DNA of 64,000 nucleotides from Lichenibacterium minor. Its GTDB lineage: Bacteria; Pseudomonadota; Alphaproteobacteria; Rhizobiales; Beijerinckiaceae. Numbering within the stretch: the stretch's first letter is position 1; every line of letters begins with the position of its first letter. The notes under the pieces were generated by a model that saw nothing but the letters and a program-made list of their open reading frames with translations, ran no database searches and was not told where the DNA came from. The translations under genes were made by a program, and so were the position numbers. The stretch covers positions 248,001 through 312,000 of the forward strand of contig NZ_QYBB01000002.1 in the NCBI RefSeq assembly GCF_004137685.1, in the 5' to 3' direction. This document shows positions 6,295 to 51,475 of the stretch, piece after piece.

Positions 6295-6370
<76 letters not shown>

Positions 6371-6454: not shown

Positions 6455-6530
6455 GGGGTCATAGCTCAGTTGGTAGAGCGCTTCAATGGCATTGAAGAGG
6501 TCGTCGGTTCGATTCCGTCTGACTCCACCA
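6455..6530 (+). tRNA. tRNA-Ala(GGC), copy 2
   Basis: Identical to copy 1 except for a compensated acceptor pair: the stem is GGGGTCA/TGACTCC, so C-G has become T-A at the fifth acceptor pair. The anticodon is GGC and CCA is encoded. It lies 84 bases after copy 1 with no promoter seen between them, so the two are probably co-transcribed. Confidence 0.97.
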
Positions 6531-7188: not shown

Positions 7189-9036
<1,848 letters not shown>

Positions 9037-9111
9037 GGATCGGGGTTCGGGCGGGATCGGCCACGGGCGGCGCTCCCTGCCGATCGCTCTCCGCGACGGT
9101 GCGATTTGCAT

Positions 9112-9203
9112 GGTTCGTTTTGAAAAATAGATTTGGGTAGGGGGTTTCCAGACCCAAAACGAACCGGTGCTGCGGTTCGCTCGGGGCATACCCAAAACGA
9201 ACC
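9112..9203. repeat. Left repeat module of the AT-rich insertion
   Basis: ACCCAAAACGAACC occurs twice in direct orientation (9152-9165 and 9190-9203). An inverted partial copy, GGTTCGTTTTG, is at 9112-9122 and could pair with 9155-9165. The second copy is led by GGTTCGCTCGGGGCATACCC. A related module recurs beyond the low-GC gene. Confidence 0.7.
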
Positions 9204-9225
9204 AAGAAAGCGCACGCTCTAGACT

Positions 9226-9876
9226 ATGTTATGGGTGCCCCTCAGCCAACCGAGCTATCGCATGCCCTACATAATGACCGTCTTAGCGCTCCTACGATCT
9301 CTCTCACAAATAGCCGACCATGGCGGACAGGTTCCATTATTGTATATGGATACGAGAAAGATCTATGGTGGATCTATCCGGATGGATGTTCCTAAAGAAT
9401 TCGTTGCACCAAATTCTTCTCGTTTGGATCCGCATTCTTGTTTGATCGTATGTGTCTGGCCAGGACTAAATTCCACGAGTGAAGTTAGGCTAGGGATCCC
9501 TAGCCGATTGATGCACGGCGAGTTCTACATGGACATCTTGATCCGAGAGAAGAACAATATATCAGATCCAGAAAAGCAGTTTGAGAGATACGTCAAATTC
9601 AATAAGGAACTGGTGCGATCCGACAGCATGTTTGGATTGGAATACATGAAGTCCTCATCTCCTGTAGTAAGGGACATATTCGTCTCTGAAAACACTAATA
9701 ATTTCAGCTTTGCTCGTTGTGAAGGAGAGAATACGCTTTCAAATTCAAGTTGTCTTCTTGTTATGTCTCAAGATAGATTCGTAATAGAAATAGGAATGCC
9801 CCGTAGTGAGTTGAAGAACTGGAAACAGATAGAATTCAAAGTGGGACGCTTAATAAGAGGTTGGATAAAAGATTGA
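9226..9876 (+). CDS. Unrecognised protein in AT-rich inserted DNA
   Basis: A 216-codon open frame in DNA that is clearly AT-richer than everything around it, with codon use unlike its neighbours (many ATA, AGA, TTA and AAT codons). The product is hydrophilic with mixed charge. Visible segments include M-D-V-P-K-E-F near the middle-left, a DPEKQFERYVKFNKELV helix, and a basic C-terminus ending RLIRGWIKD. I recognise no domain, signal peptide or membrane helix. Start choice is open: ATG at 9226, or at 9262 (M-P-Y-I-M). A second frame from ATG at 9231 stays open for 54 codons, so the 5' end may be frameshifted. Acquisition by transfer is inferred. Confidence 0.55.
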   Translation: MLWVPLSQPSYRMPYIMTVLALLRSLSQIADHGGQVPLLYMDTRKIYGGSIRMDVPKEFVAPNSSRLDPHSCLIVCVWPGLNSTSEVRLGIPSRLMHGEFYMDILIREKNNISDPEKQFERYVKFNKELVRSDSMFGLEYMKSSSPVVRDIFVSENTNNFSFARCEGENTLSNSSCLLVMSQDRFVIEIGMPRSELKNWKQIEFKVGRLIRGWIKD

Positions 9877-10207
9877 TACTGATTGCCTTTCCGATGATAA
9901 TCAATAAAATATTAATAGTTATTTGATCTGTAATGTGCATCGAACATCCGAGCGCTGGTTAAAGCCTGCGAGTTCAATGAGGGTGTACCCAAAGCGAACC
10001 GGTCCAGGTAGGCCTTCGAAGCCCAGCCGCGTCGGTTCACCTGAGCCATACCCGTATCGAACAAAACCCCTCTGGCTCTGCTCGCCTCGGCCGAGCCTCC
10101 TGCGGAAGGGCTAAAATGTTAGATACCGCCTTGGCGTGGCTGAGTTGACGATGTCACAACGTGATGGTCATCGCCGATCGGGCGGGCGGTCAGAGGACAG
10201 TCAAGGC
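9877..10207. other. Boundary of the AT-rich insertion, no gene seen
   Basis: AT-rich for about 60 bases after the stop, then returning to the local base composition. It contains the right repeat module and the leader of the acetyltransferase. No promoter hexamers are convincing. Confidence 0.5.
9987..10063. repeat. Right repeat module of the AT-rich insertion
   Basis: ACCCAAAGCGAACC at 9987-10000 matches the left copies in 13 of 14 bases and, like the first left copy, is followed by GGT. GGTTCACCTGAGCCATACCC at 10034-10053 then parallels the left GGTTCGCTCGGGGCATACCC, and a degenerate CGAAC follows. The pair order matches the left side. Confidence 0.6.
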
Positions 10208-10780
10208 ATGCAGCACAGTCAGGAGCCAATCCGTACGCCTCGGCTTATTCTGCGCCAGTGGCAACCCTCGGATCTTCCCGTGTACGCGGCCCTTAACGCC
10301 GACCCTGAGGTCAGGCGGTTCTGGCCAACCCTACTCACGCGCGCGCAGAGTGACGAACAGGCTGAAGGCTTTCAGCGTCACATAGAGGAGCATGGTTTCG
10401 GGTTCTGGGCTCTTGAGGTGCCCGGCGTAGCGCCCTTTGTCGGCTTCACTGGATTGATGCGCGTAGATTCGAGCATGCCATTTGCCCCAGGCGTCGAAAT
10501 TGGCTGGCGGCTGGCCCGTGAGCATTGGGGCAAGGGCTATGTCACGGAGGCTGCCCGAGCAGCCCTCGCCGACGGCTTCGGACGGCTCGGCCTTTCTGAG
10601 ATCGTCTCCTACGCTGTAGTAGGGAACGAAGCGTCATTCAGCGTGATGAAGCGGATTGGGATGAATCGGGATCAAGCTGGTGACCTCGATATACCAGGGC
10701 GAGAAGCACTTCACCGGCGAGCTGAGCTTTACCGCGTCCATAGAAATCAGGTGAACGCGGCCAACGGCAACAGTCGTTAG
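10208..10780 (+). CDS. GNAT N-acetyltransferase (RimJ/RimL type)
   Basis: A 190-residue acetyltransferase from ATG at 10208. It opens TPRLILRQW, the standard beta-1 strand of the RimJ/RimL subgroup. The acetyl-CoA pyrophosphate loop is EHWGKGYVTEA (the Q/RxxGxG/A motif area), and the V-G-N-E-A-S-F-S-V-M-K-R-I-G-M segment closes the fold. It would transfer acetyl from acetyl-CoA to an amine; the acceptor is unknown. A longer frame to GTG 10136 exists but lacks family likeness. Codon use is less GC-extreme than core genes here, and it adjoins the repeat-flanked insertion, so it may have arrived with it. Confidence 0.8.
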   Translation: MQHSQEPIRTPRLILRQWQPSDLPVYAALNADPEVRRFWPTLLTRAQSDEQAEGFQRHIEEHGFGFWALEVPGVAPFVGFTGLMRVDSSMPFAPGVEIGWRLAREHWGKGYVTEAARAALADGFGRLGLSEIVSYAVVGNEASFSVMKRIGMNRDQAGDLDIPGREALHRRAELYRVHRNQVNAANGNSR

Positions 10781-10906
10781 ATCGTTATGGGTGTGCCCAT
10801 GCCGGACCGTCCAAGCCGCGCCACCCTGCCGGTTCGCCACGGCCTCTCCGCCGGCCCGTGGCACCGACGACCGGACGGCTCCACAGACGGAAGCCGCGCG
10901 AGGCGT

Positions 10907-49626: not shown

Positions 49627-50068
49627 TCACCGACAAGCGCGAAGCGATGGAGGGTGCCAGACCCGGCGACGAGGCGCGGACGGTTATCCGATCCGCATCT
49701 TGGAGGTCGGTCGACCGGACCGTGGTGTCTCACCCCGACATGCCCCATCACCCGATCGAGGACCTCGGACCCGACCGAGCCGCTGTGCGTGGATCCGGTC
49801 ATGTTTCGAGACCGGCGTTGGAAGCGGCACTGGATGCATCCTCGGTCGGTCTGGATCGGGTTGGGCCGCCTGCCGGTGCATCGATCCATTCAGAAGGCAC
49901 GATGAACATTCATCCTGGCACCAGCCCTCGAAGCGGCGCACATTCCGTCCGCATCAGAGCAAGGGATGGGCCGCATTGTCCCGTGCAGGGTGGATCCCCG
50001 CATGATTGATGGACGTGACGCCCACGACGAGCGTCATCATATCGAGACCTGCGCATCTCGTCGCTCGG
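49627..50068. other. Degenerate DNA after the AAA+ remnant, no gene seen
   Basis: About 440 bases. The frame of the ATPase stays open but the translation no longer looks like protein. No promoter or RNA gene is evident. It ends at the stop of the TetR gene on the minus strand. Confidence 0.45.
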
Positions 50069-50686
50069 TCAGCCGATGATAGATCGTAGCACCATGTCGG
50101 AGAACATTGCGGCCACCTCCTCCTTGGACAGTCTCCCAGCCGATTTGAACCACGTACCCACACTTGAAAGCATGGCCAGGATACCGAATGTCGCAACCCT
50201 GGCATCCATGATCTTGAACTTACCCACCCGCTCCCCGTCACGCAGTATGGTGGACAGCTTATCTTCGTATCGTGCCCTTAGCCCGAGTATGTAGGCGAGG
50301 TTCTCGGGATCCAGACTTCGAAGTTCTGAATTGATGACGAACATCTCCTCGCTTCGTTCCGCGTGGTACAGGACGTGAAAGTGGACGAACGCCTCCAGCC
50401 TCTCGGATGGCGACGAATCCTCGGTGGGAAGATCACGATCCGCGGCGTGCAGGAGGTCATCCATGTGACCCTTGACGATCTGGAACAGGAGATCCTGCTT
50501 GCTCTCGATATGATTGTAGATCGAGCTTTTCTGGATCCCGACTTCGGCCGCCAAGTGCTGCAGGCTCGCGGCAGCGAACCCGTGCCGGTAGATGAGGCGG
50601 AGCCCAGCTTTATGAATCGCGGCCTCGGTCTGGGGCCCCGACGATCCGATTTTCCGCGCCATCTCCCGTCGGTCCGATCCGAACAT
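50069..50686 (-). CDS. TetR-family regulator at the end of the leucine cluster
   Basis: A 205-residue repressor. The N-terminal helix-turn-helix has H-G-F-A-A-A-S-L-Q-H-L-A-A-E-V-G-I-Q-K-S-S-I-Y-N-H (about 35-60), and the C-terminal ligand domain is helical. The placement downstream of acyl-CoA metabolism genes suggests a CoA-thioester ligand and control of that cluster. Start could be 50686 or ATG 50662 (M-A-R-K). Its own upstream region carries a dyad that may be an autoregulatory operator. Confidence 0.85.
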   Translation of the reverse strand: MFGSDRREMARKIGSSGPQTEAAIHKAGLRLIYRHGFAAASLQHLAAEVGIQKSSIYNHIESKQDLLFQIVKGHMDDLLHAADRDLPTEDSSPSERLEAFVHFHVLYHAERSEEMFVINSELRSLDPENLAYILGLRARYEDKLSTILRDGERVGKFKIMDARVATFGILAMLSSVGTWFKSAGRLSKEEVAAMFSDMVLRSIIG

Positions 50687-50699
50687 TCACGCAACCCGT

Positions 50700-50718
50700 C
50701 GATGGGTCGATACCATCG
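50700..50718. promoter_or_regulatory. Dyad upstream of the TetR gene
   Basis: CGATGG-N7-CCATCG (50700-50705 and 50713-50718), 14 bases before the TetR start. The size and symmetry suit a TetR dimer, but it does not resemble the palindrome before ivd. Confidence 0.45.
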
Positions 50719-50806
50719 CGGCGGCTCATGACCAAAGGCCTGGACGCCAGAACCGTCGGCAGCCTGGCCGAATCCTGAGGGTAACCAGCCATGGATGTCG
50801 ACGCGG

Positions 50807-51475
50807 TCAGGATGAGACCCGGTCGCCGAAGTCCGTGGGTGTCACGTGCTGGGTCATCAGGGCTGCGTCCTGCGCAGCCTGGGATCTCGCGTAGCCCGGA
50901 CGATCCGAGAGTCTGGCCCAATAGTCCCTGATATCCGGTGTGAACTGAGCGTCGAGGCCCAGCTTGGTGGCGAGAAGGAGAGCATAGCCGATGGACACGT
51001 CGGCCGCGGTGAACCGGCCCGCCGCATAGAACCCACCCTCGAGCCCGCTCAGGCCCTTGCGCAGGCGCGACAGGAACCATCGCGCGTAGTCGTCCGCCAC
51101 CTCGGGCAGCCGGCGCTCGGGCGGTTCCAGCCGCCGGTAGCGTAAAACGAGCGTCTGCGGGAACGTGAGAGTCGCTTCCCCGAAATGTAGCCCGTTCAGG
51201 AATGCCGCGTAGCCGGGCTCTTCCGGGGCCACGTCGAGAGGGGAAGGTCCGTGGCGGCTGACGAGGTATTGGCAGATCGCGGCCGACTCGGTCATCCGCA
51301 CGTCGCCGTCCTCGAGCAGCGGGATCGTGCCGAGCGGGTTCGTCGACAGGTAGGTGGATGCGGCGACGCGCGGCGGGAAGGGCAGCATGCGCAGCTCATA
51401 AGGCAGGCCCATCTCCTCCATCACCCAGAGCGGGCGGAAGGAGCGGGCGTCCGAGCAGTGATGCAGCACGAGCAT
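50807..51475 (-). CDS. Glutathione S-transferase family protein
   Basis: A 222-residue GST. The thioredoxin-like N-domain has the G-site segment L-H-H-C-S-D-A-R-S-F-R-P and N-P-L-G-T-I-P-L-L-E-D-G-D, with the T-E-S-A-A-I-C-Q-Y-L glutathione contact. The helical C-domain follows. The likely catalytic residue is Cys8 or Ser in C-S-D-A-R-S. The substrate is unknown. It lies between the acyl-CoA synthetase (32 bases) and the TetR gene in the leucine-degradation run, where GSTs are occasionally found, so detoxification of a reactive enoyl intermediate is possible. Confidence 0.85.
   Translation of the reverse strand: MLVLHHCSDARSFRPLWVMEEMGLPYELRMLPFPPRVAASTYLSTNPLGTIPLLEDGDVRMTESAAICQYLVSRHGPSPLDVAPEEPGYAAFLNGLHFGEATLTFPQTLVLRYRRLEPPERRLPEVADDYARWFLSRLRKGLSGLEGGFYAAGRFTAADVSIGYALLLATKLGLDAQFTPDIRDYWARLSDRPGYARSQAAQDAALMTQHVTPTDFGDRVSS

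Follow-up and report, generated by a model that had tools for sequence, protein, structure and literature searches.

How a low-GC gene of no recognized family came to lie between repeats in an otherwise very GC-rich chromosome is the question raised by a locus of Lichenibacterium minor, which we analyzed within a stretch of 64,000 nucleotides, hereafter the window (contig NZ_QYBB01000002.1, positions 248,001 to 312,000). A preliminary description had seen there a small mobile cassette, made of one gene between two copies of one repeat module (9112-10063). In our reading, the locus is probably a two-gene cassette array built on the sites of small serine recombinases of the resolvase/invertase family, and similar arrays elsewhere in the genome and in relatives suggest an integron-like gene-collecting system relying on a different recombinase class. 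A wider proposal, possible and put forward more tentatively, is that of a serine-recombinase integron, in which cassettes holding a single gene or a few, with a crossover-type palindrome of their own, would be captured by a platform made of a resolvase-type recombinase and its resolution site. The resulting polar arrays would have been disseminated to numerous chromosomal and plasmid locations in the genus and in Methylobacterium.

The array of the window

The repeat flanking the low-GC gene is real and above chance. The 14-mer ACCCAAAACGAACC occurs exactly at positions 9152 and 9190 and with one mismatch at 9987; at up to two mismatches, the window holds three matches against 0.14 expected, a number reached in none of 100 shuffles. 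The GGTTC...CATACCC part of the module first described corresponds to 9174-9193 and 10034-10053. The low GC of the gene was equally borne out, the 1-kb block 9001-10000 having a GC of 0.467 against 0.594-0.778 in all other 1-kb blocks of the window. A second, milder dip (0.594) lies at 50001-51000, and two tRNA genes matched by Rfam (6295-6367 and 6455-6527) are found about 2.6 kb ahead of the array.

The two flanks are of different types, not two copies of one module (Table 1). On the left lies a module of 107 nt (LE), whose layout, obtained from the alignment of seven places, comprises two directly repeated boxes, a long-gapped inverted box pair, a short spacer and a 30-bp palindrome. The right module (RE, 9971-10063) is a pair of palindromes, P1 and P2, that resemble the crossover subsite of LE. 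The array thus reads LE, orphan gene, RE, a GNAT acetyltransferase gene and a third, degenerate site overlapping the GNAT stop codon. The unit first proposed was too small, because the GNAT gene past 10063 also ends at a degenerate site. The window LE was matched by our LE model R1 (G000:C122:257097-257202, E 1.1e-23), this copy having belonged to the training set of R1. The idea of a small mobile cassette whose boundary repeats differ from known IS ends can be retained in part: the repeats recur beside other low-GC genes and one other array is missing from its place in a congener, but the gene is not free-standing between like repeats. It belongs to a one-sided array, in which one end is formed by a resolution-site-like module and the genes are followed by crossover-like palindromes.

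Table 1. Features of the cassette array, in positions of the window.
Feature	Position	Strand	Remarks
LE, resolution-site-like module	9097-9203	+	107 nt; alignment with six other LEs of the genome
LE box 1	9097-9111	+	
LE box 2	9112-9128	+	
LE interrupted inverted pair	9129-9165	+	
LE spacer	9166-9173	+	
LE subsite I	9174-9203	+	centre GGGC-AT-ACCC
First cassette gene, 216-aa orphan protein	9226-9876	+	ORF list
RE palindrome P1	9971-10000	+	score 38.4; centre GT; polarity as LE
RE palindrome P2, weak	10034-10063	+	score 21.4; centre AT, like subsite I of the window LE
Second cassette gene, GNAT-family N-acetyltransferase, 214 aa	10136-10780	+	Pfam PF13302, E 1.1e-33
Third site, degenerate	10779-10808	+	score 23.0; centre GT; polarity as LE

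The 216-codon product was rightly described as belonging to no familiar family, as it has no match in Pfam at E<=1, nor in NCBIfam and PADLOC at E<=0.01. A tblastn search of plasmids and phages returned no match at E<=0.01, and among 100 related genomes two matched at this threshold, namely its own and another one weakly (E 0.006, 24% identity). Structure prediction from the single sequence was uninformative (mean pLDDT 38). At the DNA level, a search of plasmids with the array of the window retrieved matches to the GNAT gene only.

Palindromes and their one-sided arrangement

The repeat unit is a 30-bp imperfect palindrome of consensus GGTTCGCTTTGGGT-AT-ACCCAAAGCGAACC. In the whole genome, the 14-mer is present at 13 places with up to one mismatch (none for the backward-read control) and the palindrome at 23 distinct places with up to three (none for the control), two of which, both at contig ends, are identical in sequence and may be one place. 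Several of the palindromes form clusters, spaced by about 0.5 to 4 kb, and the intervening genes are often of lower GC; many sites are degenerate. Since copies are found near assembly contig ends (G000, end of C149, start of C158 and both ends of C7), some arrays may be broken by assembly. A CATACCC-like core lies 46-47 nt past P1 at four loci, the window included. A general P1-spacer-P2 repeat was not supported as a rule: of 33 P1 sites, 6 have such a core on their downstream side and 1 on its upstream side (5 and 4 of 38 in a wider window).

Beyond this genome, an exact-pattern scan detected the repeat in at least two Methylobacterium contigs among genome contigs and in none of the viral contigs, counts to be read as lower bounds, given the strictness of the pattern and the possible omission of close relatives of the window. 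With model R1, matches were obtained in 3 of 6 genomes of the genus (E<=0.01); at the family level, 8 of 397 genomes matched at E<=1e-4. From 40 listed R1 matches in three congeneric genomes, we kept the 24 LEs covering at least 76 of the 109 model positions (12 in the genome of the window, 6 in G001 and 6 in G002), the 16 shorter ones, mostly a palindrome alone, being dropped.

The palindromes are strictly confined to one side of the LEs. We scanned 5 kb on either side of 30 LEs, namely these 24, L100 and five of other genera (L102-L106), for palindromes scoring at least 20 bits: the side of subsite I (144,944 bases) holds 36 and the side of the boxes (142,050 bases) none. The scoring matrix was trained on palindromes of the genome of the window, some of them inside these arrays, which could raise the count without creating the side bias. 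Some LEs are not independent, L039 and L046 having common flanks and L081 and L082 being near copies, and without L082 and L039 the count is 33 to 0. In a first count of 28 LEs, which omitted the weak ones in L044 and L087, nine had no further site on either side. Several arrays hold more than one palindrome per LE. The sites are also polar: among the 18 LEs having a GT/AC-centred site, the nearest one has the polarity of the LE in 15 and the farthest in 16, and both polarities coexist within some arrays (e.g., L034, L036, and L079).

The side that carries the palindromes is low in GC. Over the next 600 bases, GC is 0.566 on the array side against 0.688 outside, and it is lower inside at 25 of 30 LEs (Wilcoxon p 2.5e-5; 23 of 26 in a first count), so that the repeat is not the dispersed element unconnected with low-GC genes that the preliminary description had considered as a counter-case. 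This bears on another explanation, by which the palindromes would take no part in gene movement and would be either sites bound by a regulator or intergenic repeats of the REP kind. Their dyad symmetry and dispersal would suit it, but their strict one-sidedness relative to LE, the low GC of that side and the plasmid breakpoints at the palindrome centre described below make it very improbable.

Small serine recombinases and their upstream sites

A few LEs adjoin a small serine recombinase gene. In the three congeneric genomes, 5 of 44 PF00239 matches are located within 300 bp of an LE (20, 20, 22, 26, and 159 bp) and 8 within 5 kb. The first four of these genes point away from the box side of the LE; at the fifth (L089), the listed LE is reversed and comes in addition to a site belonging to the recombinase itself. 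There, the recombinase gene and its site face the reversed LE with no gene between (L089 5740-5986), which looks like an emptied array. Pfam matched the recombinases of L083, L084, L089, L105, and L106 to PF00239. That of L083 possesses Arg8 and Ser10 and shows sequence similarity to the solved Tn552 Bin3, Tn3, and gamma-delta recombinases, and the LE-adjacent recombinases that we compared form one subfamily. Judging from sequence, the LE presents a crossover-type subsite (two inverted half-sites around a 2-bp centre) and boxes on the recombinase side, these accessory boxes being presumably bound by the recombinase.

Such an organization resembles that of Tn3-type TnpR/res and of plasmid resolution recombinases, with a recombinase gene beside the outer boxes, a distal crossover-like palindrome, a 2-bp centre, and the Ser10 and Arg8 residues. 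In Tn3 transposons, toxin-antitoxin genes are reported to be located just downstream of res subsite I and tnpR beside subsite III, and exchanges between transposons were inferred at the subsite I dinucleotide (PMC7157771). Our loci differ in that no serine recombinase lies within 300 bp of 19 of the 24 LEs, and in that many LEs precede several genes among which polar palindromes recur, whereas the Tn3 case described there is a toxin-antitoxin pair beside the site inside a transposon (PMC7157771).

Tyrosine recombinases are associated with integrons, and the arrays share with attI and attC arrays a single anchor, a one-sided and mostly single-gene array, mostly polar sites between genes, and a cargo of orphans and acetyltransferases. 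P1 and RE might accordingly be taken for attC sites of a tyrosine integrase, left by a classical integron of which the layout, cargo, one-sidedness and polarity would be the traces. This is most improbable, as none of the 56 tyrosine recombinase matches (PF00589) of the three congeneric genomes lies within 5 kb of any of the 24 LEs. Moreover, the core boxes of attC sites are RYYYAAC/GTTRRRY, whereas a C follows GTT in 39 of 44 palindrome half-sites, and an Rfam search of six array loci at gathering scores returned only tRNAs (Rfam may hold no attC family). Unlike integrons, the arrays also show palindromes of the serine-recombinase type, and one genome holds 12 LEs. Tyrosine-integrase, Xer-like and transposon-end readings were also considered and not retained; the family search gave no tyrosine recombinase near LEs. 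A trio of recombinases suspected from ORF sizes in L104 and L100 was set aside, Pfam identifying hydrolases, TIM-barrel, TetR, metallo-beta-lactamase-fold, flavin reductase, and FAD-binding proteins.

The site was found again when loci were chosen by the recombinase. Homologues of the recombinase are present on at least 5000 plasmid records (among those counted, 27 at 60-80% identity and the rest below 60%), and the eight plasmid loci first examined all show an LE-like layout upstream of the recombinase gene. A GGYATRC core is present there in seven of the eight, the eighth, from Leclercia (L184), having a diverged form; in the other seven, the best palindrome above 10 bits is upstream of the gene in six, and L183 has none above 10 bits but a readable core. 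Among 397 genomes of the order, 27 match the recombinase at E<=1e-45. A palindrome of 7.9 to 38.7 bits starts 87-110 bp upstream of the start codon in 22 of 30 loci chosen by protein, of at least 15 bits in 15 of 30, when 11 of 6000 shuffled 170-bp windows reach 7.8 bits and none 15; the site thus goes with the recombinase. Eight of the 30 loci have no palindrome at that place. None of the 30 loci carries a second site of 15 bits in the sequence covered past that place (about 1.3 kb for the majority, but 62 and 0 bases for two loci), and an array is therefore missing from most relatives. We observed arrays solely in the genus of the window and a few genomes from other genera, among them Methylobacterium.

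No recombinase gene adjoins the window LE, and its genome has no match to the recombinase at E<=1e-45; of its 12 PF00239 matches, 11 were compared and none is close. The array of the window may have been built in trans by a plasmid-borne recombinase or by one since lost. A different account, in our view unlikely, would see in the arrays decayed plasmid resolution sites: the recombinase and its site would have entered the chromosome on plasmids or transposons, of which the arrays would be remnants, the sites serving to resolve multimers and the genes being adjacent by chance. The abundance of homologues on plasmids, the recombinase loci examined, which have one site or none and no array, and the many degenerate sites fit this account. 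It is difficult to reconcile with the 36 to 0 one-sidedness and the consistent polarity, with P1 copies repeated between single genes, which is unlike a lone resolution site, and with the sharp outer end of LE, the adjoining 45 nt holding no obvious recombinase remnant by eye.

Insertions, breakpoints, and a proposed gene capture

Comparison with congeners points to an insertion in one case. Array L040 sits between a conserved stretch, which we take to be the SRP RNA gene, and a gene, presumably an SDR, that adjoin each other in congener G001, with edges that are not base-exact. The left flank of L045 is homologous to two congeners up to a few bases from the LE, and its right side is disturbed. 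The best matches of the two flanks of L034 and L094 are far apart in congeners, so that these arrays may mark rearrangement points. No empty site of the kind first suggested was obtained for the window itself: the loci around the right-hand gene of four congeneric genomes (about 1.5 kb on each side) had no match to the left flank. In L102, L103, and L104, all of one other genus, the 45 nt outside the LE look alike by eye (a GC-rich dyad, then GCATTCCA) and are unlike the flanks in the genus of the window; this shared flank is perhaps a preferred target.

Chromosomal LEs end sharply at the outer box, are dispersed, and their outer edge forms a short inverted repeat with that of RE. One could thus regard LE and RE as the ends of a non-autonomous transposon (a MITE or a mobile insertion cassette) mobilized in trans by a DDE transposase. 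Mobile insertion cassettes and MITE-bounded genes are indeed non-autonomous genes between repeats, as here, but the two ends are unequal in our case and several arrays have more than one palindrome per LE. At L045 and L040, no target duplication was seen by eye, with boundaries that are not base-exact on both sides in congeners. As LE-like sites adjoin serine recombinases, we consider the intervention of a transposase to be quite unlikely.

Plasmids gave a view of the palindrome centre itself. Four Methylobacterium plasmids (pMOC3, CBMB27-p2, pNYY1_3, and H33R-06 unnamed3) share an arm of 98-100% identity that ends inside the palindrome at GGTTCGTTTTGGGTAT. H33R-06 diverges directly after the central AT, and the other three still agree over GCCT past AT (pMOC3 and pNYY1_3 over TC as well) before differing. 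In two of the four, the arm leads into a recombinase with its site, the recombinases being 99% identical and the sequence between subsites different; in a third, it leads into an LE-like module that lacks a recombinase gene and precedes LysR and transporter genes. The fourth plasmid has at this point a 1.6-kb segment (GC 0.48) encoding an M23 peptidase, after which come a full palindrome, a site, and a recombinase sharing about 74% identity with the pMOC3 enzyme.

Similarly, the replicons C4 and C5 of G001 (L081 and L082), which are presumably plasmids, align over two blocks (98.9% and 99.3%) that span the recombinase, LE, two genes, and P1, and the match stops at GGT-AT-ACC, 84 nt past P1. 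The two part three bases after this centre, with weak similarity for about 20 bases further. In C5, the blocks are separated by 1,054 extra bases located 46 nt past the LE (L082 4036-5089) and absent from C4; this segment, the ORFs of which recur in L044 and L080 at 54-86% amino acid identity, is probably an insertion sequence. Serine recombinases leave breakpoints at or next to the 2-bp centre, and the positions seen in these plasmids are as expected of such enzymes, homologous recombination at a short shared site being possible too. In three small Klebsiella plasmids, pairwise matches continue through the recombinase and its upstream site, with no exchange there.

In the capture model, the LE would be the anchor, a copy of the resolution site of the recombinase with its accessory boxes outward and the 30-bp crossover palindrome toward the cassettes. 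Foreign genes would be joined to the LE through strand exchange at the centre of subsite I and would be followed by a related palindrome (P1, with P2 as well in certain places), so that they would accumulate on one side of the LE as cassettes do beside the attI of an integron; single cassettes might be excised and inserted in the same manner. Several observations go against the model. Serine recombinases normally need matching centres, and those of the sites outside LEs are mostly GT (34 of 40) when LE subsites I are mostly AT (10 of 17). P2 is not general, judging from the wider count given above (5 and 4 of 38 P1 sites). Exchange at subsite I does not account for the sharp outer ends of chromosomal LEs. 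The model is further weakened by the absence of a close recombinase from the genome of the window, by the 19 LEs of 24 with no serine recombinase within 300 bp, by the eight recombinase loci devoid of the palindrome, by the lack of a further site at all 30 of these loci, and by the distant flank matches of L034 and L094.

Gene cassette capture is tied to tyrosine recombinases, in integrons and dif modules. In the pdif modules of Acinetobacter plasmids, accessory genes are reported to lie between short site-specific recombination sites and to be reshuffled module by module (PMC12907356, PMC13141974). By this description, our arrays are alike in having accessory genes between short recombination sites and unlike in their serine recombinase sites, the dif-like sites of these sources belonging to a XerCD system. 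A literature search, with most subscription journals and bioRxiv preprints outside its scope, found no serine-recombinase cassette array. If the capture model holds true, gene capture might be a further activity of a plasmid stability module with homologues as widespread as those counted above (mostly below 60% identity), and searches for LE and palindrome sites could show where some orphan low-GC genes come from. Whether resolvases, usually viewed as deletion machines, build gene arrays in nature is a question that can be tested in the laboratory.

The cargo of the arrays is varied. Pfam identified on the array side GNAT acetyltransferases, metallo-beta-lactamase-fold proteins, DUF4279, LysE, a Crp-like regulator, and an Asp/Glu racemase, whereas 6 of 10 proteins in one array-side set had no Pfam match at E<=0.1. 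PADLOC gave no defence match among ten proteins, eight of them array proteins without Pfam match. A metallo-beta-lactamase-fold gene is present in array L036 of the genome of the window, and a relative with 64% identity to it lies next to sites in Methylobacterium sp. J-048 (L100). On the M. radiotolerans plasmid pNYY1_4 (L177, NZ_CP090583.1, 5617-6987), genes for a MerT-family protein, a GDCCVxC protein, and an HTH protein are located between a palindrome and the site of the recombinase, a segment that is possibly a mercury-transport cassette.
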